Source of the DNA: Clostridia bacterium
Lineage (GTDB): Bacteria; Bacillota; Clostridia; Oscillospirales; CAG-382
Length of the DNA: 64,000 nt
NCBI GenBank assembly: GCA_017436675.1
Contig: JAFSCS010000014.1
Location: forward strand, 62,001 to 126,000
Direction: 5' to 3'
Each line of letters opens with the position of its first letter. Within the stretch, counting starts at the first letter, position 1. A model generated the notes under the pieces. That model made no database searches and was not told the origin of the DNA. It saw nothing but the letters and a program-made list of their open reading frames with translations. Positions 5,564 through 49,793 of the stretch are shown piece after piece. A program made the translations under genes and the position numbers.

Positions 5564-6244
5564 ATGAAAATGAAAAAATTATTAATATCGAGCCTCATAA
5601 CGAGCGACATCCGAGCAGAACTCGAAAAAAACGGATATATCCCAAAAACCATCTCGAGCACGAACGGTTTTTCATCGGAGCTTGGATACCACGCCGACGT
5701 CAACGTGTGTAAAACGCCCTTTGGATTGGTCACCTCGAAACCCTTTTTTGAAAAAAACAGATCGTATTTTGATGAAAAAAACGTGCTGATCTCAAAATCG
5801 ACTCCGAGAGAAACTTATCCTAACGACGTGGTCTTCAACGGCGCATTCGTCGGTGAAACGCTCATCGCTTCAAAATATATATGTGACGAGATCTCTTCGA
5901 ATTCAAAAAAGATCATAACCGTGAAGCAAGGGTATGCAAAATGCTCGTGCGCAGTGGCAAAGAACAGCGTTATTACCGCTGACGACGGCATCGCCGAAAA
6001 ATTGAAAATTAACGGTATCGATCACTTGAAGATCGACTGTGGCTACGTTTCGCTTCGTGGATTTTCCTGCGGCTTTATCGGCGGCGCAAGCTTTTTCGAC
6101 GACGATATCCTATTTACCTTCGGCAACGTGAAAAAACATAAAAACGGAACTGATATAATAAGCTTCCTGAAAAATATAAACGTCTCCGTCGTGAGCCTCG
6201 GTAATAACGAGCTGTATGACTACGGCGGAGCAATAGTAATCTAA
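5564..6244 (+). CDS. DUF6873-type GME-fold protein
   Basis: About 226 residues from the ATG at 5564 (another ATG lies two codons on; no strong ribosome site, so the start is uncertain). The sequence has segments I associate with the clostridial DUF6873/GME-fold family: YPNDVVFNGAFVG near residue 80, VKQGYAKCSCAVAKNS near 117, a glycine-rich CGFIGGASFF near 164 and a C-terminal ELYDYGGAIVI. GME-fold relatives include arginine deiminase and agmatine deiminase, where a Cys-His-Asp/Glu set attacks a guanidino group. Here the CSC pair and DYGG tail are seen, but the substrate is unknown. It lies 23 bases before the MATE exporter gene. Confidence 0.65.
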   Translation: MKMKKLLISSLITSDIRAELEKNGYIPKTISSTNGFSSELGYHADVNVCKTPFGLVTSKPFFEKNRSYFDEKNVLISKSTPRETYPNDVVFNGAFVGETLIASKYICDEISSNSKKIITVKQGYAKCSCAVAKNSVITADDGIAEKLKINGIDHLKIDCGYVSLRGFSCGFIGGASFFDDDILFTFGNVKKHKNGTDIISFLKNINVSVVSLGNNELYDYGGAIVI

Positions 6245-6267
6245 GCGCAAAGAAATGGAAAAACACA

Positions 6268-7626
6268 ATGGCAAAAGAAAATTTTGAAAAAAATCTGGTG
6301 AGCGGCAACGTAGTCAAGCAGCTCATAATGTTCTCGATACCGATGCTCATCTCGAACATCGTCCAATCGATCTATAGCGTAGCCGATATGATGATAGTCG
6401 GTCAGTATTCGGGCCCGTCGGGTATCTCGGCGGTAAACATAGGTAGCCAAGCAACGTTCCTTTTGACCAATATGGTCTTCGGACTCAGCGTCGGAGCGAC
6501 CGTTTTGATCGGTCAGTATATCGGCTCGGGCGAAAAGGAAAAGCTCAAGAAAACGGTTGCAACTCTTTTTACAACGCTCGTCTACCTTGGCGTAATATTG
6601 AGCGTGATAATGGTGTTTCTCGAGGTTCCGCTTTTGAAATTGATCCAAACACCTGCGGAATCCTTCAAGGAAACAGAGCAATACTATTTCGTAACTATCC
6701 TCGGATTGATCTTTATATTTATATATAACGCACTCAGCGCGGTAATGCGCGGTATGGGTAATAGCACGGTGCCTCTTGTGTTCGTCACGATCGCTTGCGG
6801 TGTTAATATAGTTCTTGACTTTTTGCTCGTCGGCGCCTTTGGATTGGGTGCGCTCGGCGCGGCAATAGCAACGGTCATCTCCCAAGCGGTAAGTGCGATC
6901 CTTTGTATCGTTTATTTGAAAAGGATCGATTTTTGCTTTGACTTTAAATTCAGATCCTTCGGCATCGATAAAGAAAGCCTCAAAATGATCTTGAAGATCG
7001 GCGTTCCCTCGTCCGTTCAAAACGTGTTAACGACCGTTTCGTTTATGTTCTTGACCGCACTTGTTAACACAGTCGGTATGGAAGCGTCGGCGGCAGTCGG
7101 CGTCGTCGGAAAATTCAACGGATTTGCGATCCTTCCCGCATTGGCAATGAGCAACTCCGTTTCCGCAATGAGTGCCCAAAACCTCGGCGCAGGTGAATAT
7201 AAGCGTGCGAAAAAGACAATGTACGTTGGTATGGCGATAGCAATGGTCATCAGCGTTATGATATTCATAGTCGTCAGACTCTTCCCCGAGCAGATAATAA
7301 AAATGTTCGACGATGATCCCACGATGATAAAATACGGACTTGAGTATATCAGCACCTTCAGCCTTGATTATCTCATCGTGCCGATAATGTTCTGCCTCAC
7401 CGGTCTGTTTATCGGCGCCGGACACACGACCTATTCGTTCATCACGGGCGTAACGAGCAGCATCCTCGTTCGTATACCCGCATCCTATATTTTCGGAATA
7501 GCTCTCGATTGGGGTTTGATGGGAATGGGACTTGGTGCACCTCTCGCATCGCTCGTTGCGACCGCAATAGCGCTCGTCCTCTATTTCAGCGGTGCTTGGA
7601 AGAAAATGAAGATAGTAAAGTCATAA
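6268..7626 (+). CDS. MATE-family efflux transporter
   Basis: 452 residues, the usual length for the family, with twelve predicted helices in two similar halves. MATE features are visible: the first helix segment VVKQLIMFSIPMLISNIVQ, GQYSGPSGISAVNIGS, NALSAVMRGMGNSTVPL near residue 150, and the matching second-half segment beginning IGVPSSVQNVLTT near 250 with VVGKFNGFAILPALAMS. MATE proteins export cationic organic compounds or drugs in exchange for H+ or Na+. It follows the GME-fold gene by 23 bases and precedes the next gene by 22, suggesting one transcript. Only a weak GGA lies before the start. The substrate is not predictable. Confidence 0.9.
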   Translation: MAKENFEKNLVSGNVVKQLIMFSIPMLISNIVQSIYSVADMMIVGQYSGPSGISAVNIGSQATFLLTNMVFGLSVGATVLIGQYIGSGEKEKLKKTVATLFTTLVYLGVILSVIMVFLEVPLLKLIQTPAESFKETEQYYFVTILGLIFIFIYNALSAVMRGMGNSTVPLVFVTIACGVNIVLDFLLVGAFGLGALGAAIATVISQAVSAILCIVYLKRIDFCFDFKFRSFGIDKESLKMILKIGVPSSVQNVLTTVSFMFLTALVNTVGMEASAAVGVVGKFNGFAILPALAMSNSVSAMSAQNLGAGEYKRAKKTMYVGMAIAMVISVMIFIVVRLFPEQIIKMFDDDPTMIKYGLEYISTFSLDYLIVPIMFCLTGLFIGAGHTTYSFITGVTSSILVRIPASYIFGIALDWGLMGMGLGAPLASLVATAIALVLYFSGAWKKMKIVKS

Positions 7627-7648
7627 AAATATAATAATGGAGTAAAAT

Positions 7649-9487
7649 ATGAAGCTATTGATAATCACCAACAGAGAAAGCGACCTTTCATCTCTCCTTG
7701 TGAAGCATTTCGGTGCAACTACGGTAGATATGGAGAAGGCAAAGGCGGTGCGACTTGATGAGTTCGACTCCGTCGCCGTGCTTGGCGGAACGGAAAGAGG
7801 CGCTGTGGTCTTCCACCACGAGCTGCGAACGAAGCTTGAAGCATATGCTGATAGCGGCAAAAAGCTGTTTTTGGAGTTTGTCAATAGCTTTCGCTACGTC
7901 TATTCGGCATCGGCAAAGCGCATCAGCCACCACCGACTCGTCGTCGCCGATGATGAGATAAACGGACTTGAGCAGGGCGAATTGCTCGACACACACGCCA
8001 ACTCCTATTCAAGACCTCATTTTTTGATGCCGAACACAAAGCCCTTGCTCTATTACCATCCCTATGTTCCCGCGCACGACAGAACGCCTATGTCGCGCGA
8101 ACAGATCGAAAGCGGTGAAGTCGCATTTTGGAGATGTGAAAACGTCCTCTCCTGCGCATTCAAAATATGCGACTTCAGAAAGGCGAGACTTGCCCCGAAA
8201 GAGCGGTTCGACTCTTTGGTGTCATATATCGTAAAATTTCTCACAAACGAAACGATAGAGATAGATATCCCCGAAACAGTAAAGCACCGTGATGTGACAA
8301 ATTTCGAGTGCGACCTCTCGGATTGTATCAAAAAAAGCCTCGCTTGGCTCGAACGTTATTTGATCGACGACGGTAATGGCGGCATCCTTGAGGGACTCAG
8401 CCACGAGATATTGCCCGACGGAACGCAGCTTCGCGCAAACAGTGTACGCACCGATTGCAGCGGTGAGGCGGCAGGAGCATTCTTCCTTTCCGGCGAAGCG
8501 GACCATAGAAGATATGCCGATAACCTCAGCGATTTTTGCTATGGGTCAATGATGATAAAGGGCACGATGTTCGACGGAATGCTACGTTGGACCGAGGAAG
8601 CGTGGGGCGTGTGTTATCAGGACGACGTCGCACGTGCATTGATCCCAACGCTGATCTCAGCAAAGCTCGGCATCACAGACAAACACGTTCCGTCCGTAAC
8701 CCGTGCTCTCGAATTCTTGATGCGAACGACCGCAAAGGACGGATTGCGCACTCGCAGGACCGATAACCTTGTCTATTTGCAAAGCGGCACGGATATCGCA
8801 TCGTTGTCCGAGGAGGAGCACGGATACCCTTGCTCGCATTACAATTCATATTACAGTGCCGCATTGATCCTTTGCTACCTCGTGACAGGCAGGGAGGATA
8901 TGCTCGAAATGGGTGTTCGCGGACTTGAGACCTTGATGTCGCTCTATCCCGAAACGACGAGAGAGCAGAGCGAAACGAGTGAGCTTTGCCGCCTCGTGCT
9001 CCCGCTTTCCGTAATGTATATGGCTACAAAAAAGGAAGCTCACAAGGAAATGCTTGAACGAGTAGTAACGGATCTTGAGCGAATGGCGTACGGCGGAGCA
9101 TATCGCGAGTGGGATACAGGCTATAAAGCAAACTGCTCGAAAAAGATCGACAGCGAATGCTCGCTTCTTGCGAAAAACGGCGATCCCGTCGCCGACCTGC
9201 TCTATTCTGTCAATTGGCTGCCTCTCGGCTTTGCCTTTGCATATGAAGCTACCCGTGATGAAAAATATAAGGCGAAATGGCATTCTGTCGCCGAGTTCTT
9301 CATCTGTTCACAAACTCTCAGCGAAAACGAGCTGATAGACGGCTCGTGGGCGAGAGGGTACGACCTTGACCGCAAGGAAAACTACGGCGTTCCGCACGAC
9401 GTGGGTTGGGGACCTTGCAGCGTCGAAAGCGGGTGGACGGTCGCCGAAATAACGATGGGACTCGAGTATTTTAAATATATAGATTAA
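7649..9487 (+). CDS. Two-domain protein: GATase-like N-terminus plus glycosidase-like helical toroid
   Basis: 612 residues, good ribosome site (GGAG, 6-base spacing). Residues 1-210 look like a class I glutamine-amidotransferase-like fold: a starting strand LLIITN, VAVLGGTERG, and a strand KKLFLEFVNSF, without a clear catalytic cysteine. Residues about 230-610 have the helix-rich, aromatic pattern of an (alpha/alpha)6 toroid glycosidase (for example GILEGLSH, DCSGEAAGAFFL, FDGMLRWTEEAWGVCYQDDVARA, SVESGWTVAEITMGLEYF). The family is not recognised with certainty; it may trim or sense a glycan in the cytosol, as no signal peptide is present. Neighbours are a MATE exporter and a secreted MBL hydrolase. 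Confidence 0.55.
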   Translation: MKLLIITNRESDLSSLLVKHFGATTVDMEKAKAVRLDEFDSVAVLGGTERGAVVFHHELRTKLEAYADSGKKLFLEFVNSFRYVYSASAKRISHHRLVVADDEINGLEQGELLDTHANSYSRPHFLMPNTKPLLYYHPYVPAHDRTPMSREQIESGEVAFWRCENVLSCAFKICDFRKARLAPKERFDSLVSYIVKFLTNETIEIDIPETVKHRDVTNFECDLSDCIKKSLAWLERYLIDDGNGGILEGLSHEILPDGTQLRANSVRTDCSGEAAGAFFLSGEADHRRYADNLSDFCYGSMMIKGTMFDGMLRWTEEAWGVCYQDDVARALIPTLISAKLGITDKHVPSVTRALEFLMRTTAKDGLRTRRTDNLVYLQSGTDIASLSEEEHGYPCSHYNSYYSAALILCYLVTGREDMLEMGVRGLETLMSLYPETTREQSETSELCRLVLPLSVMYMATKKEAHKEMLERVVTDLERMAYGGAYREWDTGYKANCSKKIDSECSLLAKNGDPVADLLYSVNWLPLGFAFAYEATRDEKYKAKWHSVAEFFICSQTLSENELIDGSWARGYDLDRKENYGVPHDVGWGPCSVESGWTVAEITMGLEYFKYID

Positions 9488-43701: not shown

Positions 43702-43730
43702 AGTATAACAAATATCTTACTTTTTGTCAA
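43702..43730 (-). promoter_or_regulatory. Consensus promoter of the Ig-like lipoprotein gene
   Basis: Minus strand: TTGACA (43730-43725) and TATACT (43707-43702), 17-base spacer. Confidence 0.8.
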
Positions 43731-43745
43731 ATATAATATCGTCGA

Positions 43746-43774
43746 TTGACATATTTTGCGTTGGGTGTTATAAT
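43746..43774 (+). promoter_or_regulatory. Perfect consensus promoter of the MBL gene
   Basis: TTGACA at 43746-43751 and TATAAT at 43769-43774 with 17 bases between, 29 bases before the start codon. Confidence 0.85.
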
Positions 43775-43802: not shown

Positions 43803-44579
43803 ATGAAAATAATCTCTCTTGTCGATAACGTGTCGCACCGCGAGGATATCAAGAGTGAGCACGGTCTTTCGATGTATATTGAATATAAGGGCAAAAAGAT
43901 CATTTTTGATATGGGACAGACCGATCTTTTTTTCGAAAACGCGAAAAAGCTCGGTGTCGACCTCTCGGACGTCGATCTCGCTGTTCTTTCCCACGGTCAC
44001 TACGACCACGGCGGCGGACTTGAACGTTTCTTGAAATGCAACGTCAAGGCAAAGGTGTATCTGAGCGAGTATGCGTTCGGAGAGCATTATAACGGAACGG
44101 AAAAATATATCGGGCTTGACAAAAGCCTTGAGCATAGCGATAGACTTGTTTTCACCGAAAATGAGACGTATCTCGGTGACGGAATGAAGCTTTTTTCGTG
44201 CAACACCAAAGAAAAACGCCACGACCTCGGCTCGTTTGGGCTGAAACGGTACGAAAACGGAGCGTTTATACCCGATGACTTTCGCCACGAGCAATATCTG
44301 CTCCTCGAGGAAAACGGAAAGCGAGTCCTCTTCAGCGGATGCTCGCATAAAGGAATAATGGATATCGTCGATTGGTTCTCGCCGGACGTACTCTTCGGCG
44401 GCTTTCATTTTTCAAAGCTTGCGCTTGACGTATCGCTCGAGGAATATTCAAAATATCTCGCATCATATAATACCCGCTTCTATACCTGTCATTGCACGGG
44501 CATCGCTCAGTTTGAGTTTATGAAAAAATACGTAAAAGAGCTGCATTATTTTTCTTGCGGCGAAACGGTCTGTATTTAG
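43803..44579 (+). CDS. MBL-fold metallo-hydrolase, DHPPS-like
   Basis: 258 residues, GGTGAG before the start. The metallo-beta-lactamase motif is LSHGHYDHGGGLERF near 64, with a leading GMxx-type strand KKIIFDMGQTDLF, a lysine/arginine-rich centre and a C-terminal YTCHCTGIAQFEFMKK...YFSCGETVCI. The His-Thr-Gly end pattern matches proteins annotated as 7,8-dihydropterin-6-methyl-4-(beta-D-ribofuranosyl)-aminobenzene-5'-phosphate synthase-like MBL enzymes. Cytosolic; true substrate not known. Stands between the divergent lipoprotein gene and the operon at 44652. Confidence 0.85.
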   Translation: MKIISLVDNVSHREDIKSEHGLSMYIEYKGKKIIFDMGQTDLFFENAKKLGVDLSDVDLAVLSHGHYDHGGGLERFLKCNVKAKVYLSEYAFGEHYNGTEKYIGLDKSLEHSDRLVFTENETYLGDGMKLFSCNTKEKRHDLGSFGLKRYENGAFIPDDFRHEQYLLLEENGKRVLFSGCSHKGIMDIVDWFSPDVLFGGFHFSKLALDVSLEEYSKYLASYNTRFYTCHCTGIAQFEFMKKYVKELHYFSCGETVCI

Positions 44580-44651: not shown

Positions 44652-45926
44652 ATGTATAACGAACAGATAAAAAAAGATTTTCTTTCAATACTTTCCGAAG
44701 AGCTCGTCCCCGCGATGGGATGCACCGAGCCGATCGCGCTCGCTTATGCTTCCGCGAAAGCACGTGAGCTGCTCGGCAGAGCACCGACACGAATAATCGC
44801 TCGTTGCAGCGGAAATATAATAAAGAACGTTCGTTGCGTTCGTATCCCGAACTCCGACGGAATGACCGGCATCGAGGCGGCTTGTGCTCTCGGTGCGCTC
44901 GCCGGTGACGCCGAGCGTCAAATGGAGGTCTTGGAGACCGTTTGTGATGAGGACAGAGCGAATACGATAAGATTCTTGCGAGAGGGAAGATGTACCTCCG
45001 AATTCCTCGAAAGCAATATCCCGCTACACTTCATAATAGAGCTTCGAAGCGGTAATTCCTATGCTACCGTTGAGGTGCGCCACTCGCATACGAATATTTA
45101 TAAGCTCGAAAAGGACGGCGAAACGCTCTTTCTCGGTGAAGATAGCGAGGACCTCACCCAACTCGCCGACAGAAGCGAGCTTTGCATCGACAATATATAT
45201 GATTTTTGCAACAATATAGAGCTTGAACGTATCACACCGTTCACCGAAAAGCAGATCGAATGCAATATGGCGATCGCCGAGCGCGGAATGGACGGCGAAT
45301 ATGGTGTCGGAATAGGAAAAGCGATCCTCGAGGCATATGGCGAAAGCACGTTCAACAAAATGCGCGCCTATGCGGCATCAGCCTCCGAGGCGAGAATGGA
45401 CGGATGCGACCTTCCCGTAATAATCACCTCGGGAAGCGGAAACCAAGGGATAACCTCGACCGTCCCCATTATCGTATATGCAAGAGAAAAGGGAATAGAT
45501 GACGAGTTGCTTGCGAGAACGCTCGTGTTCTCGGCACTGTTGACCGTCTACCAAAAGGAATATATCGGAAAGCTCTCTGCATTTTGCGGCGCAGTGTCAG
45601 CCGCTTGCTCTGCGGGAGCTGCCATAACGTATATGGTCGGCGGAAGCTTGACGCAGATCAAGGATACTGTCGACAACACTCTTGCCGATATCCCCGGAAT
45701 AATATGCGACGGCGCGAAGGCGTCGTGCGGTGCGAAGATCTCGTCCGCGCTCGATGCGGCTTTGTTCGCACATACTCTCGCCATGAAGGGCAAGGTATAT
45801 GAATCCAATACAGGTATCATCCGTGACGATACGGGTGAAACGATAAGCTGGGTTGGTCATATCGGAAAGGTCGGAATGATGCCGACGGATAAAGAAATAG
45901 TAAAACTAATGGTGAACAACTCCTGA
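44652..45926 (+). CDS. UPF0597 / L-cysteine desulfidase family protein
   Basis: 424 residues, GGAG 8 bases upstream. Family motifs: ELVPAMGCTEPIALAYASAKA near 15-35 with a cluster cysteine, GMTGIEAACALGALAG near 78, SGSGNQGITSTVPI near 258 and CGAVSAACSAGAAITYMVGG near 315, whose cysteines bind an oxygen-sensitive [4Fe-4S] cluster in CyuA-type enzymes. Such enzymes break L-cysteine to pyruvate, ammonia and sulfide, or act on related amino acids. It opens the operon with N-formylglutamate amidohydrolase, a beta-barrel-like membrane protein and two ATP-grasp ligases, though the 13-base gap after it might allow separate control. Confidence 0.9.
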   Translation: MYNEQIKKDFLSILSEELVPAMGCTEPIALAYASAKARELLGRAPTRIIARCSGNIIKNVRCVRIPNSDGMTGIEAACALGALAGDAERQMEVLETVCDEDRANTIRFLREGRCTSEFLESNIPLHFIIELRSGNSYATVEVRHSHTNIYKLEKDGETLFLGEDSEDLTQLADRSELCIDNIYDFCNNIELERITPFTEKQIECNMAIAERGMDGEYGVGIGKAILEAYGESTFNKMRAYAASASEARMDGCDLPVIITSGSGNQGITSTVPIIVYAREKGIDDELLARTLVFSALLTVYQKEYIGKLSAFCGAVSAACSAGAAITYMVGGSLTQIKDTVDNTLADIPGIICDGAKASCGAKISSALDAALFAHTLAMKGKVYESNTGIIRDDTGETISWVGHIGKVGMMPTDKEIVKLMVNNS

Positions 45927-45939
45927 AACGAGGCGTAAT

Positions 45940-46599
45940 ATGTTTGATATCGAAGCTTATAAAAAGTATGAGCAATATTTTGAGACCGAGAAGACCGAAT
46001 CCTTCGAGCTCCTTTCGGGAAAAGGAAAGCTGATCGTATCCGCACCCCATAGCGTTGAGCAAACTCGAAACGGTTCAAAAAAGTTCTCTGAACCGCAAAC
46101 GGGTGTGATCGCAAAAATGCTCCACGACGAGCTCGGCATCCCCGTTATATATAAAACGAAGAATTGCGGCGACGACGCCAACTACGATGCGGTCTCACCC
46201 TATAAGGACGCACTTGTAGAGTATATAAAAGAAAATAAAATAGAATTTATGCTCGATCTTCATCAGCTTTCCCAGAAGCGTGACGTGATGATCGATATCG
46301 GAACGGGGAAATATAAAAACGTGAAGGACCCCGCTATCGTCGAGGTTGCATATAGAATATTTGAAAAATATGATCTCGGAAGGATAGAGATAGATACACC
46401 CTTTGACGCATCCTATCCGTATACTCTTTCGTCATATATAGCAAGAAACTGCAATATATCGTGCCTGCAGCTCGAGCTGAATTCAAAGCTCGTAAGAACG
46501 GACAGTAGCTCATCCAAGGAGGAAAAGGTGTTCTCGTCACTCGTCGAATTGATCGACGCGATCGAGAGCACACTATCGCAGAACTATGAAAAAGAATAG
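45940..46599 (+). CDS. N-formylglutamate amidohydrolase family protein
   Basis: 219 residues, GAGGCG before the start. Zinc ligands of the family are visible in LIVSAPHSVEQTRNG near residue 33, DLHQLSQKRDVMIDIGTG near 105 and a C-terminal LQLELNSKLVR near 180. Characterised members hydrolyse N-formylglutamate; related ones cut amide bonds such as poly-gamma-glutamate or ligase products. In this operon the enzyme is next to two RimK-like amino-acid ligases, so it is a good candidate to undo or trim what they make. Its stop overlaps the next start by 14 bases. Confidence 0.78.
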   Translation: MFDIEAYKKYEQYFETEKTESFELLSGKGKLIVSAPHSVEQTRNGSKKFSEPQTGVIAKMLHDELGIPVIYKTKNCGDDANYDAVSPYKDALVEYIKENKIEFMLDLHQLSQKRDVMIDIGTGKYKNVKDPAIVEVAYRIFEKYDLGRIEIDTPFDASYPYTLSSYIARNCNISCLQLELNSKLVRTDSSSSKEEKVFSSLVELIDAIESTLSQNYEKE

Positions 46600-47902
46600 C
46601 TCTCTTTTTGAATTTTCGGCTGACTCAATAAAATTTCGCTATGGAAAAACGGTGACCGAGCCGTTTGGCGAAAGCACAAATTTGAATTTCCTCGACGAAA
46701 GATTTTCATATCCCGATAAGCTCAACGTTCTCGCCGTTTCTCCGAAAGTCTATTCGGAATTCAAAAATGAGATAGTCCTATTGACCAAAAAAGGCTCAAA
46801 AGCATACGTTAACGTCACGTTGAGAAAAAGGGAGAATATCGACGACAGCCAATTTCTCGCCTCGTCACATATAAAAGAGGAGATAGGCTTGACGAACGGA
46901 GACGAGGTCGAGCTCTGCCGCTACAAAAAAACACGCTTCAACAAAATAATGACACAAAAGATCGACTTTATCCGCGAAAATGAGCTCGTATTGTCGCAAT
47001 ATGACGCCGACGGAAACAAGATCGAGCTTGACGAATATAAATATTTTGAGCTGTATAACCCAATAACCTGCGATAATATTATCGTGAAGCGCAGCCATAT
47101 CAGAATTGACGAAGAGCTGAAAAACGGAACGATACGCCTGAACCGAAAGCAACGCTTCTGCCTTGGCTGTGAGCTCGTCCACATTTTGACACCGTGGCAG
47201 TGGGAGATACTTGAAAATAACCTGAACGAAGCAGAGCTTTCGCTGATAAAGGAGATATTTGTCGGAGAAGATCATCTCCTCGATAAAACGAGCTCGTTTA
47301 AGCAGAAGCTTGATGCAAAAAATATCCTTTCCCGCTATTTTGCGAACGAGCTTCGAATGATCCCCGTTTTGCGCTCGGGCACACAGAGGAAAAAGAGCCT
47401 CGCACGTCGCCTTTCCGATCTGTACGTCGGAAAAAGCACGACCTCGCTGATCTGTCGCCGCCCGTACGATAACGACGAGGGACTCGACATCGTCCGAATG
47501 ACTCGCTCGAATATGAACCTGCTCGGTATCGACGAAATGGATAAGGTGATATTACAATATAAAAACAAACGAGTCAGCACCCGAGTGCTCGAGCTCGACG
47601 ATGACGAAGCGTTTTTGGAAACGAACCAACCGATCTCGACCGATCTTGTCGTCTGTCTGCCCGTGCATATAAGGAAACAGCTTGGAGTCCTCGATCTGAA
47701 CTCGACCGTCAAGGTCGACAGAGATACTGCATTCATTTTCAAAAAGAGCATCAACGAGCAGATAGTTCCCGTTCTGTTGACGCTGTTTTCAACGAATCTG
47801 TTCAACGACGTATCTGTGATCTTGTCGGCGGCATTATCGGTACTCGCGATCCCGATCGTGCTCTATTTCAACTTGTCCTCAAAACGTAATATGAGGGCTT
47901 AA
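46586..47902 (+). CDS. Unknown C-terminally membrane-anchored protein with double-psi-barrel-like segments
   Basis: 438 residues. No signal peptide; one C-terminal hydrophobic stretch (about 392-430, VPVLLTLFSTNLFNDVSVILS...) suggests a tail anchor facing the cytosol. Segments around 95-110 (GLTNGDEVELCRYKK), 315-345 (MTRSNMNLLGIDEMDKVILQYKNKR) and 355-380 (VVCLPVHIRKQLGVLDLNSTVKV) resemble the paired double-psi beta barrels of the Cdc48/VAT N-domain, which hold a peptide or nucleic acid strand. This is weak pattern matching. It overlaps the amidohydrolase gene by 14 bases and precedes two ATP-grasp ligases by 12 bases; it may be the membrane scaffold or target of the modification. Confidence 0.5.
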   Translation: MKKNSSLFEFSADSIKFRYGKTVTEPFGESTNLNFLDERFSYPDKLNVLAVSPKVYSEFKNEIVLLTKKGSKAYVNVTLRKRENIDDSQFLASSHIKEEIGLTNGDEVELCRYKKTRFNKIMTQKIDFIRENELVLSQYDADGNKIELDEYKYFELYNPITCDNIIVKRSHIRIDEELKNGTIRLNRKQRFCLGCELVHILTPWQWEILENNLNEAELSLIKEIFVGEDHLLDKTSSFKQKLDAKNILSRYFANELRMIPVLRSGTQRKKSLARRLSDLYVGKSTTSLICRRPYDNDEGLDIVRMTRSNMNLLGIDEMDKVILQYKNKRVSTRVLELDDDEAFLETNQPISTDLVVCLPVHIRKQLGVLDLNSTVKVDRDTAFIFKKSINEQIVPVLLTLFSTNLFNDVSVILSAALSVLAIPIVLYFNLSSKRNMRA

Positions 47903-47914
47903 CAGGAGAAAACT

Positions 47915-48775
47915 ATGTTAGGATGGCTAATAGTCAACGGCTTCTTGGAGTCGAAAAAATTTGATGAGATATATTCGTTTTTGAAGAACGCATCGCGCTG
48001 TGTCGGCATCACCCTTGAAATAAAAACGAACGTTGAGCTGATGAATTCTCTTGACGATCAATATATGATAAAGCCCGATCTGGTGTTGTTTTGGGACAAG
48101 GATGTCTATCTTGCGAAAAGACTCGAGGGACTCGGGATCCGCCTCTTTAACAGCGCCGCCTCCGTCGAGATCTGCGACAATAAAATATTGACGGCATTAA
48201 CGCTCCAAGGTAACGTAAAAACTCCGAAAACAGTCATCGCACCGAAGACGTTTGAGGGCGTCGGCTACACAAAAAAAGATTTTTTGAAAAAGGCAATAGA
48301 AATTTTGTCGCTTCCGGTGGTAATAAAGGAAGCATACGGTTCCTTCGGTCAGCAGGTGTATCTTGCGAAAACACTCTCCGAGGCGGAAGCGATCGTCGAC
48401 AAGCTCGGTCATAAGGAGTTTTTGCTCCAAGAGTTTGTAAAAACGAGCGAGGGCAGGGACGTTCGCGTCAACGTTGTCGGCGGAAAGGTCGTGTCTTCAA
48501 TGCTAAGATATAACGAAAACGACTTCCGTTCAAACATAACGAACGGCGGCAGTATGAAAAAATACGATATCTCTCCCGCTTGGGCAGATGCGGCAGTGAA
48601 GGCGTGCGAAACGATCGGACTCGACTTTGCGGGTGTTGACGTGATGTTCGGCGAAAATGATGAGCCGATGATCTGCGAGGTCAACTCCAACCCCCATTTT
48701 AAAAGCAGCTTTGAGTGTAACGGAGTCGATATGAGTATGTGTATTATGAGCTACGTTAAGGAACAAATGCAATGA
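47915..48775 (+). CDS. RimK-like ATP-grasp ligase 1
   Basis: 286 residues, AGGAGAAAACT before the start. An N-terminal Rossmann-like domain (1-80) is followed by the ATP-grasp core: VVIKEAYGSFGQQVYL near 145 (ATP lysine and glycine loop), LLQEFVKTSEGRDVRVNVVGG near 170, the arginine in SSMLRYNENDFRSN, a GG motif and the metal ligands of MICEVNSNPHF (ExN) near 263. The family joins an amino acid to a carboxylate with ATP, as RimK adds glutamate to ribosomal protein S6 or F420/pteridine ligases do. Its stop overlaps the second ligase start by 4 bases. Confidence 0.88.
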   Translation: MLGWLIVNGFLESKKFDEIYSFLKNASRCVGITLEIKTNVELMNSLDDQYMIKPDLVLFWDKDVYLAKRLEGLGIRLFNSAASVEICDNKILTALTLQGNVKTPKTVIAPKTFEGVGYTKKDFLKKAIEILSLPVVIKEAYGSFGQQVYLAKTLSEAEAIVDKLGHKEFLLQEFVKTSEGRDVRVNVVGGKVVSSMLRYNENDFRSNITNGGSMKKYDISPAWADAAVKACETIGLDFAGVDVMFGENDEPMICEVNSNPHFKSSFECNGVDMSMCIMSYVKEQMQ

Positions 48776-49572
48776 AAGGTCTGTTGATATACGATAACAT
48801 CGGAAAAAACCGTAACGAATGGTTTATCGATGCGCTTATAAATACGGCAAAAAAATATGACATCGAGCTTGAATTGCTCGTCGTTGACGGAAACGAACCG
48901 TTCTCGCTTGAGAACTTTCCCGACATTGCACTGGTTAGAGTTATCGCACCGCAAATAAACGAATACCTCGAAAAAAACGGCGTAAAAGTGTTTAATAACT
49001 ATAAAACCTCATATTACGCCAACAATAAGTGGAATACATATCTGCTCTCAAAAGAGCTTGGAATAAACGTAATGAACACAACACTTCCGGATAATATTGA
49101 AGATATCACCTATCCGTTCGTCGTAAAATCGCTCGACGGCCACGGCGGAAGCGAGGTGTTCCTCGTCAATTCAAGTGAAGAATACGATATAGTAGCTAAA
49201 AAGCTAAAAAAAGACTACCTCATCCAAGAAAAATGCTCCAACGTAGGAAAGGACGTTCGGGTTTATTCGCTCGACGGTGAGATCGTCGCCTCAATATTGC
49301 GAGAAAGTGAAAGTGATTTTCGAAGCAACTTTTCTCTCGGCGGAAGAGTCAGCGTGTTCGAAGCGACCGACGAAATGAAAAATACCGTGAAAAAGTTGTA
49401 TGATACACTCGGCTTTTCCCTCGTCGGAGTCGATTTCATATCGCATAACGGAAAATGGGTGCTAAACGAGCTCGAGGACGTCGTCGGTACGCGTATGCTC
49501 TATAAATGCACCGATATCGATATCGTTGATATGTATCTTGATTCAATATCCCAAAAAATAAAGTCAGTGTGA
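48772..49572 (+). CDS. RimK-like ATP-grasp ligase 2, variant metal site
   Basis: 266 residues, coupled to ligase 1. It keeps the ATP-grasp plan: VVKSLDGHGGSEVFL near 122, LIQEKCSNVGKDVRVYSLDGE near 144 and SILRESESDFRSNFSLGGR near 180, all alignable with ligase 1. At the C-terminus the usual ExN metal pair reads NELEDVVGTRML, so the asparagine is replaced by glutamate. Metal binding or specificity may therefore differ. The last codons (KSV stop) lie within the left end of the 49.6-kb inverted-repeat element. The two ligases appear to be ancient duplicates with separate acceptors. Confidence 0.82.
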   Translation: MKGLLIYDNIGKNRNEWFIDALINTAKKYDIELELLVVDGNEPFSLENFPDIALVRVIAPQINEYLEKNGVKVFNNYKTSYYANNKWNTYLLSKELGINVMNTTLPDNIEDITYPFVVKSLDGHGGSEVFLVNSSEEYDIVAKKLKKDYLIQEKCSNVGKDVRVYSLDGEIVASILRESESDFRSNFSLGGRVSVFEATDEMKNTVKKLYDTLGFSLVGVDFISHNGKWVLNELEDVVGTRMLYKCTDIDIVDMYLDSISQKIKSV

Positions 49573-49793
49573 AGCAGACTGAGAGAAACGAAGTTATTTT
49601 TCACGAAAAACGAGCGTCGGCTTACAAAGGTAAGGTAGTCGAGTTTTTCGTGAAAACCCTTGAAATTACAATAGATAATTATTATTCCTTATAAAAAGAA
49701 CCAAGCTTATCTCCTATGATAAGCTTGGGCTTTTGCTTTAATTTATCCTTCAAGGGTGTAAAGAACGAGTTTGTCTCAGTCTGAAACACTGAC
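49563..49793. repeat. 231-bp nested inverted-repeat element after the ligase operon
   Basis: Outer arms GTCAGTGT...CAGACTGAGA (49563-49570, 49575-49584) pair with TCTCAGTCTG (49774-49783) and ACACTGAC (49786-49793). A second pair, TTTTCACGAAAAAC (49598-49611) and GTTTTTCGTGAAAA (49643-49656), lies inside, then a perfect 11-bp hairpin CCAAGCTTATC/GATAAGCTTGG (49701-49728). The layout suggests a MITE-like element or mobile palindrome; part of it is repeated at 37342. It begins inside the 3' end of ligase 2. No gene is seen in the 233-base gap 49573-49805 it fills. Confidence 0.65.

Follow-up and report, generated by a model that had tools for sequence, protein, structure and literature searches.

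What would four closely packed genes, which combine two ATP-grasp ligases with an amidohydrolase and a membrane-anchored protein, do in a clostridial cell? Amide ligases and their matching hydrolases, as in RimABK and in the handling of polyglutamylated cofactors, control ribosomes and coenzymes. The window, by which we mean the whole 64,000-nucleotide stretch of DNA analysed, holds a set of genes that has the look of a module, as yet undescribed, for reversible tagging or for building chains. Pfam, NCBIfam, PADLOC, PHROGs and the open-licence papers searched yielded no named system of this composition, in agreement with an earlier sequence-only reading of the window. We favour, tentatively and at a little less than an even chance, a membrane-docked module for amide ligation and trimming that works in the manner of RimABK.

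The four genes and their probable transcript

The four reading frames were all confirmed on the forward strand, at the positions first proposed, behind a gene of the SDH_alpha/UPF0597 type (44652-45926). The first, FG (45940-46599), encodes an FGase-like zinc amidohydrolase of 219 aa, the eraser candidate. It is followed by B438 (46586-47902), encoding a membrane-anchored protein of 438 residues with predicted double-psi barrels like those of the p97/CDC48 N-domain. AG1 (47915-48775) encodes a RimK-family ATP-grasp ligase with a canonical CEVN motif, and AG2 (48772-49572) a divergent RimK-like ATP-grasp protein in which NE-x-ED replaces ExN. Thirteen bases separate the SDH_alpha-type gene from FG, and the three junctions within the set measure -14 (FG/B438), +12 (B438/AG1) and -4 bases (AG1/AG2). 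The values reported earlier (14, -12 and 4) were roughly right in size but carried the wrong sign for two. The 12-base gap before AG1 includes an AGGAG site.

The strongest promoter match found, a sigma-70 consensus (TTGACA-17-TATAAT, forward strand, 43746-43774) with 12/12 matches and a spacing of 17, is a probable transcript start. It precedes a metallo-beta-lactamase-fold gene (43803-44579), which itself lies upstream of the SDH_alpha-type gene. A terminator-like hairpin with an 11-bp stem lies 3' of AG2 (49701-49728, forward strand) and is predicted on the opposite strand too. Since the promoter match stands before the metallo-beta-lactamase-fold gene and the hairpin past AG2, a transcript holding six genes is likely. 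The two upstream genes are absent beside the set in the gene lists of five related loci (L002, L004, L005, L016 and L028). Within 43702-43774, before the metallo-beta-lactamase-fold gene, two near-perfect sigma-70 matches stand back to back on opposite strands.

Ligases, hydrolase and membrane protein

Both AG1 and AG2 contain the Pfam RimK domain (AG2 scores 76.8 against a cut-off of 21), which upholds the earlier assignment of two RimK-type proteins. The two differ in their scores against TIGR00768, the model for RimK-family alpha-L-glutamate ligases: AG1 reaches 181 bits, over the curated cut-off of 143.4, whereas AG2 remains under it at 111.5 bits. After RimK, the next-best models for AG1 are LysX and MptN. 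The CEVN motif was present in 11/11 AG1 rows of the alignment, and NE-x-ED replaced the usual E-x-N metal motif in 10/10 AG2 rows. Because AG2 lacks the usual metal-binding Asn, the supposed ligase pair may equal one ligase and a divergent partner, in which case AG2 may assist AG1 in a catalytic or a regulatory role.

FG is FGase-like by a weak Pfam match and by its predicted fold. The window copy scores only 15.5 bits against Pfam FGase (PF05013), under the gathering cut-off of 28.9, as does the copy in L016 (13.6 bits), while a relative from a Bacilli-type genome (L028) exceeds it with 33.3 bits. A sequence search of FG against the PDB returned nothing meaningful, and the resemblance emerged from a fold search with the predicted model (pLDDT 80, pTM 0.84). 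The best match was the FGase-family protein 2odf (Z 15.8 over 188 residues), along with FGase 2q7s (Z 14.5 over 190 residues) and the gamma-PGA hydrolase YndL (Z 14.5); other zinc peptidase folds (M14/M20) ranked closely behind. This model points to the N-formylglutamate amidohydrolase / poly-gamma-glutamate hydrolase fold. The earlier call of an N-formylglutamate amidohydrolase is thus borne out by the predicted fold and the L028 relative but not by the profile score of the window copy. Eight residues (H37, R43, D79, N81, D106, H108, E179 and N181) are shared by all seven sequences of the alignment and are candidate catalytic residues or zinc ligands, the latter being assumed for this enzyme.

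By sequence and predicted model, B438 has double-psi barrels resembling the p97/CDC48 N-domain, the part with which the p97 motor grips its substrates. It matches CDC48_N (PF02359) at residues 292-341 with an E-value of 3e-4 and 21.2 bits, under the gathering cut-off of 35.1, and designed VCP-type double-psi barrels (DPBBs) in the PDB are among the hits of its profile. In the AF2 model, the first barrel (residues 30-114) aligns with the p97 N-domain with a Z of 12.6 and 1.9 Å over 81 residues. The mean pLDDT of this model is only 60.8. Because it is poor past about residue 262, the third barrel and the C-terminal hairpin rest on sequence. The protein had been described as beta-barrel-like, which holds for small soluble barrels but not for a generic barrel. 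Weak phylum-wide matches in frames of 701-768 aa (G731, G748, G935 and G975) covered the barrel region only, and we discounted them as probably being ATPases of the CDC48 type; for a further weak match, G666, tblastn found nothing. The B438 relative in L004 (8001-9298) is broken by an apparent frameshift, which is either an assembly error or real.

Membrane anchoring, also claimed earlier, agrees with the hydrophobic stretch observed in the C-terminal part of the protein. This region (47780-47899, forward strand) holds a probable hairpin and a tail with the end NLSSKRNMRA. Several relatives have two hydrophobic stretches near the C-terminus and the window copy a single longer one, which suggests a membrane hairpin with both ends cytoplasmic. 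The eight consecutive residues LSSKRNMR are invariant between the window protein and four relatives with 33-56% overall identity to it. They form the longest invariant run of B438 (p 0.0006 in a shuffle that treats neighbouring, non-independent columns as independent). Outside this group of close relatives the tail differs (LSEERAKIN, LSQERLKV...). Across five genomes, no protein besides B438 ended in KRNMR, and we rejected the motif as a tail common to several substrates. The B438 tail itself may be a docking site for the enzymes or the acceptor.

Recurrence and proposed function

Relatives of B438 are rare, found in 3/295 genomes of the order and 2/63 of the family, with 5 strong matches in 391 in the class. 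In total, 14 bacterial B438 loci were compared: the window, L002, L003, L004, L005, L021, L016, L017-L019, L028, L033, L034 and L035. FG adjoins or is fused to B438 in all 14, whereas an FG of this type is otherwise rare (7/291 genomes of the class); the fusion is a single protein of 669-684 residues in one genus. An amide ligase lies beside B438 in 13 of the loci; none was found near the B438 of L002. The kind of ligase varies. AG1 and AG2 are both present in the window, L004, L005, L021 and L016 (where the order is FG-AG1-AG2-B), and AG1 occurs alone in L003. Loci L017-L019 have a FolC/Mur-type ligase instead, L028, L033 and L034 a FolC together with a convergent ATP-grasp gene, and L035 one ATP-grasp gene. 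The FolC-like gene beside the set is a paralogue, as those genomes hold another, more distantly related FolC-like gene at a different place.

Parts of the set also occur apart from it. Nine further genomes of the family without the full set have AG1 relatives (39-50% identity), and the five that were opened (L059-L063, relatives of the host) contain a stand-alone tandem AG1-AG2 pair without FG or B438, always with NE-x-ED in AG2. In a phylogenetic tree, the AG2 proteins of the module group apart from stand-alone AG2 (support 97/92); for AG1 the corresponding division is less well supported (69/89). FG without B438 was found in L056-L058. As the AG1-AG2 pair and FG each occur outside the full set, each has its own work, and the set consists of two modules repeatedly joined. 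The co-conservation that the sequence-only reading required is seen for FG and for an amide ligase with B438, but only in part for the AG1-AG2 pair, which also stands alone. In L057, the FG relative (5983-7023, reverse strand) is apparently fused to a domain labelled by eye as NUDIX-like, near a thymidylate-synthase-like gene.

Because ligases from two unrelated superfamilies (ATP-grasp and FolC/Mur) adjoin the same FG-B438 core, a conserved amide chemistry is suggested: the chemistry, rather than one enzyme, appears to be kept across lineages, with the arrangement maintained while one ligase superfamily swaps for another. The two kinds of ligase at this core, the likeness of FG to hydrolases of glutamyl amides, and the precedent of RimABK together lead to the ligation/trimming reading. 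AG1, with AG2 as its divergent partner, would spend ATP on coupling amino acids, of which glutamate is the likeliest, to a carboxylate group, and FG, as an amidohydrolase of the zinc carboxypeptidase fold, would remove or trim the added chain. B438 would sit on the cytoplasmic face of the membrane, held by its C-terminal hairpin, and its p97-N-like barrels would hold the acceptor and/or the enzymes. The acceptor may be a protein, possibly the tail of B438 itself, or a small molecule. We infer the shared substrate of the ligases and FG, the direction of the chemistry, the use of glutamate and the membrane topology.

Several loci count against such a module: the AG1-AG2 pairs without FG or B438, the FG genes without B438, L003 without AG2, and L002, which has no ligase and a stop in FG. 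So does residue E40 of FG, which is not conserved among the FolC-type versions. The stop in L002 (FG at 7351-8004) is in frame at the E40 position (residue 40), next to an intact B438, and possibly reflects decay of this FG.

Instead of tagging a protein, the set could make and turn over a small molecule, either a (poly)glutamylated cofactor or some amino-acid conjugate, and B438 would then serve as a scaffold in the membrane. We consider this rather unlikely. RimK-type ligases do build coenzyme tails as well, LysX and MptN score next for AG1, folate is the normal substrate of FolC-like enzymes, and FG shares its fold with N-formylglutamate amidohydrolase. The polyglutamate chain of methylofuran is made by dedicated ligases, MyfA/MyfB (PMC8141765). 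These resemble the present ligases as chain builders but have a coenzyme as their target, and the abstract mentions no hydrolase or membrane partner. Against a cofactor, the set has no recurring neighbour that encodes a cofactor core, a soluble cofactor gives no reason to expect a p97-N-like membrane protein, and the FolC of the set is additional to another FolC-like copy.

The sequence-only reading had proposed a tagging system with writer, eraser and scaffold. It is partly supported, in that ligases co-occur with an amidohydrolase of the FGase/poly-gamma-glutamate-hydrolase fold; refined, the scaffold is p97-N-like and the ligases are a separable tandem pair. A bolder version is a route of bacterial protein tagging in which ATP-grasp or FolC-type ligases would write a short amino-acid chain, the FGase-type enzyme would erase it, and the membrane-anchored p97-N-like protein would read it or carry it on its own C-terminus. 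This route is distinctly unlikely; if true, it would represent a ubiquitin-like logic made from amino-acid ligases.

It is improbable that FG-B438 and AG1-AG2 are two unrelated units sharing one transcript. The AG1 relatives and AG pairs outside the set would fit this, as would the loci that lack AG2 or have another gene order, but several families share the full set of four genes, the tree separates module from stand-alone copies, and other lineages carry a different ligase type in the same place.

Cyanophycin synthetase combines ATP-grasp and Mur-type domains. A poly-amino-acid polymer, intracellular or exported and of the poly-gamma-glutamate or cyanophycin kind, with alternating ligases and degradation by FG, is the least probable: FG resembles poly-gamma-glutamate hydrolases and both ligase kinds occur together in three genomes, but the loci read show neither an exporter nor a PgsC/PgsA-like gene, the matches to models of cyanophycin synthetase fall far short of the cut-off, and the ligases are single-domain proteins.

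Known systems and distant relatives

The ligation/trimming reading has its closest precedent in RimABK of Pseudomonas, which polyglutamylates RpsF and in which a RimK-type ATP-grasp writer is co-encoded with a residue-removing peptidase, fused forms included (PMC11957791). The eraser RimB is a retropepsin-like aspartic protease, whereas the hydrolase of the window is FGase-like. RimABK also lacks the FGase fold, FolC and a p97-N-like membrane protein, and its target is ribosomal protein S6. The present set thus adds to the pairing of ligase and hydrolase a membrane-bound p97-N-like partner, which one genus has fused to the hydrolase. With only four small genes, this conserved and unexplained chemistry becomes directly testable.

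Other known systems are further removed. Against the ATP-grasp model of the GAK system (TIGR04356, cut-off 300 bits), AG1 scores 55.3 and AG2 26.9. Neither PADLOC nor PHROGs, searched as defence and phage libraries, gave anything credible, and no known anti-phage defence system in PADLOC-DB matched credibly. In the open-licence literature, we found no description of an ATP-grasp, an N-formylglutamate amidohydrolase and a CDC48 or double-psi protein together. FG shares its fold with N-formylglutamate amidohydrolase and the poly-gamma-glutamate hydrolases PghP and YndL, but differs in adjoining or being fused to a membrane p97-N-like protein with amide ligases adjacent.

B438 likewise resembles the N-domains of p97, CDC48 and VAT in its predicted double-psi barrels, but it has no AAA ATPase and instead has repeated barrels and a probable C-terminal membrane hairpin. 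No relatives of B438 were found in viral contigs, and the only one on a plasmid is a partial relative from haloarchaea, near which no FG or ligase of the set's kind was found. This Halobacterium hubeiense protein (L015, 7554-8636) matches CDC48_N with 68.1 bits, well over the cut-off of 35.1, and has additional barrel-like repeats as well as C-terminal hydrophobic stretches.
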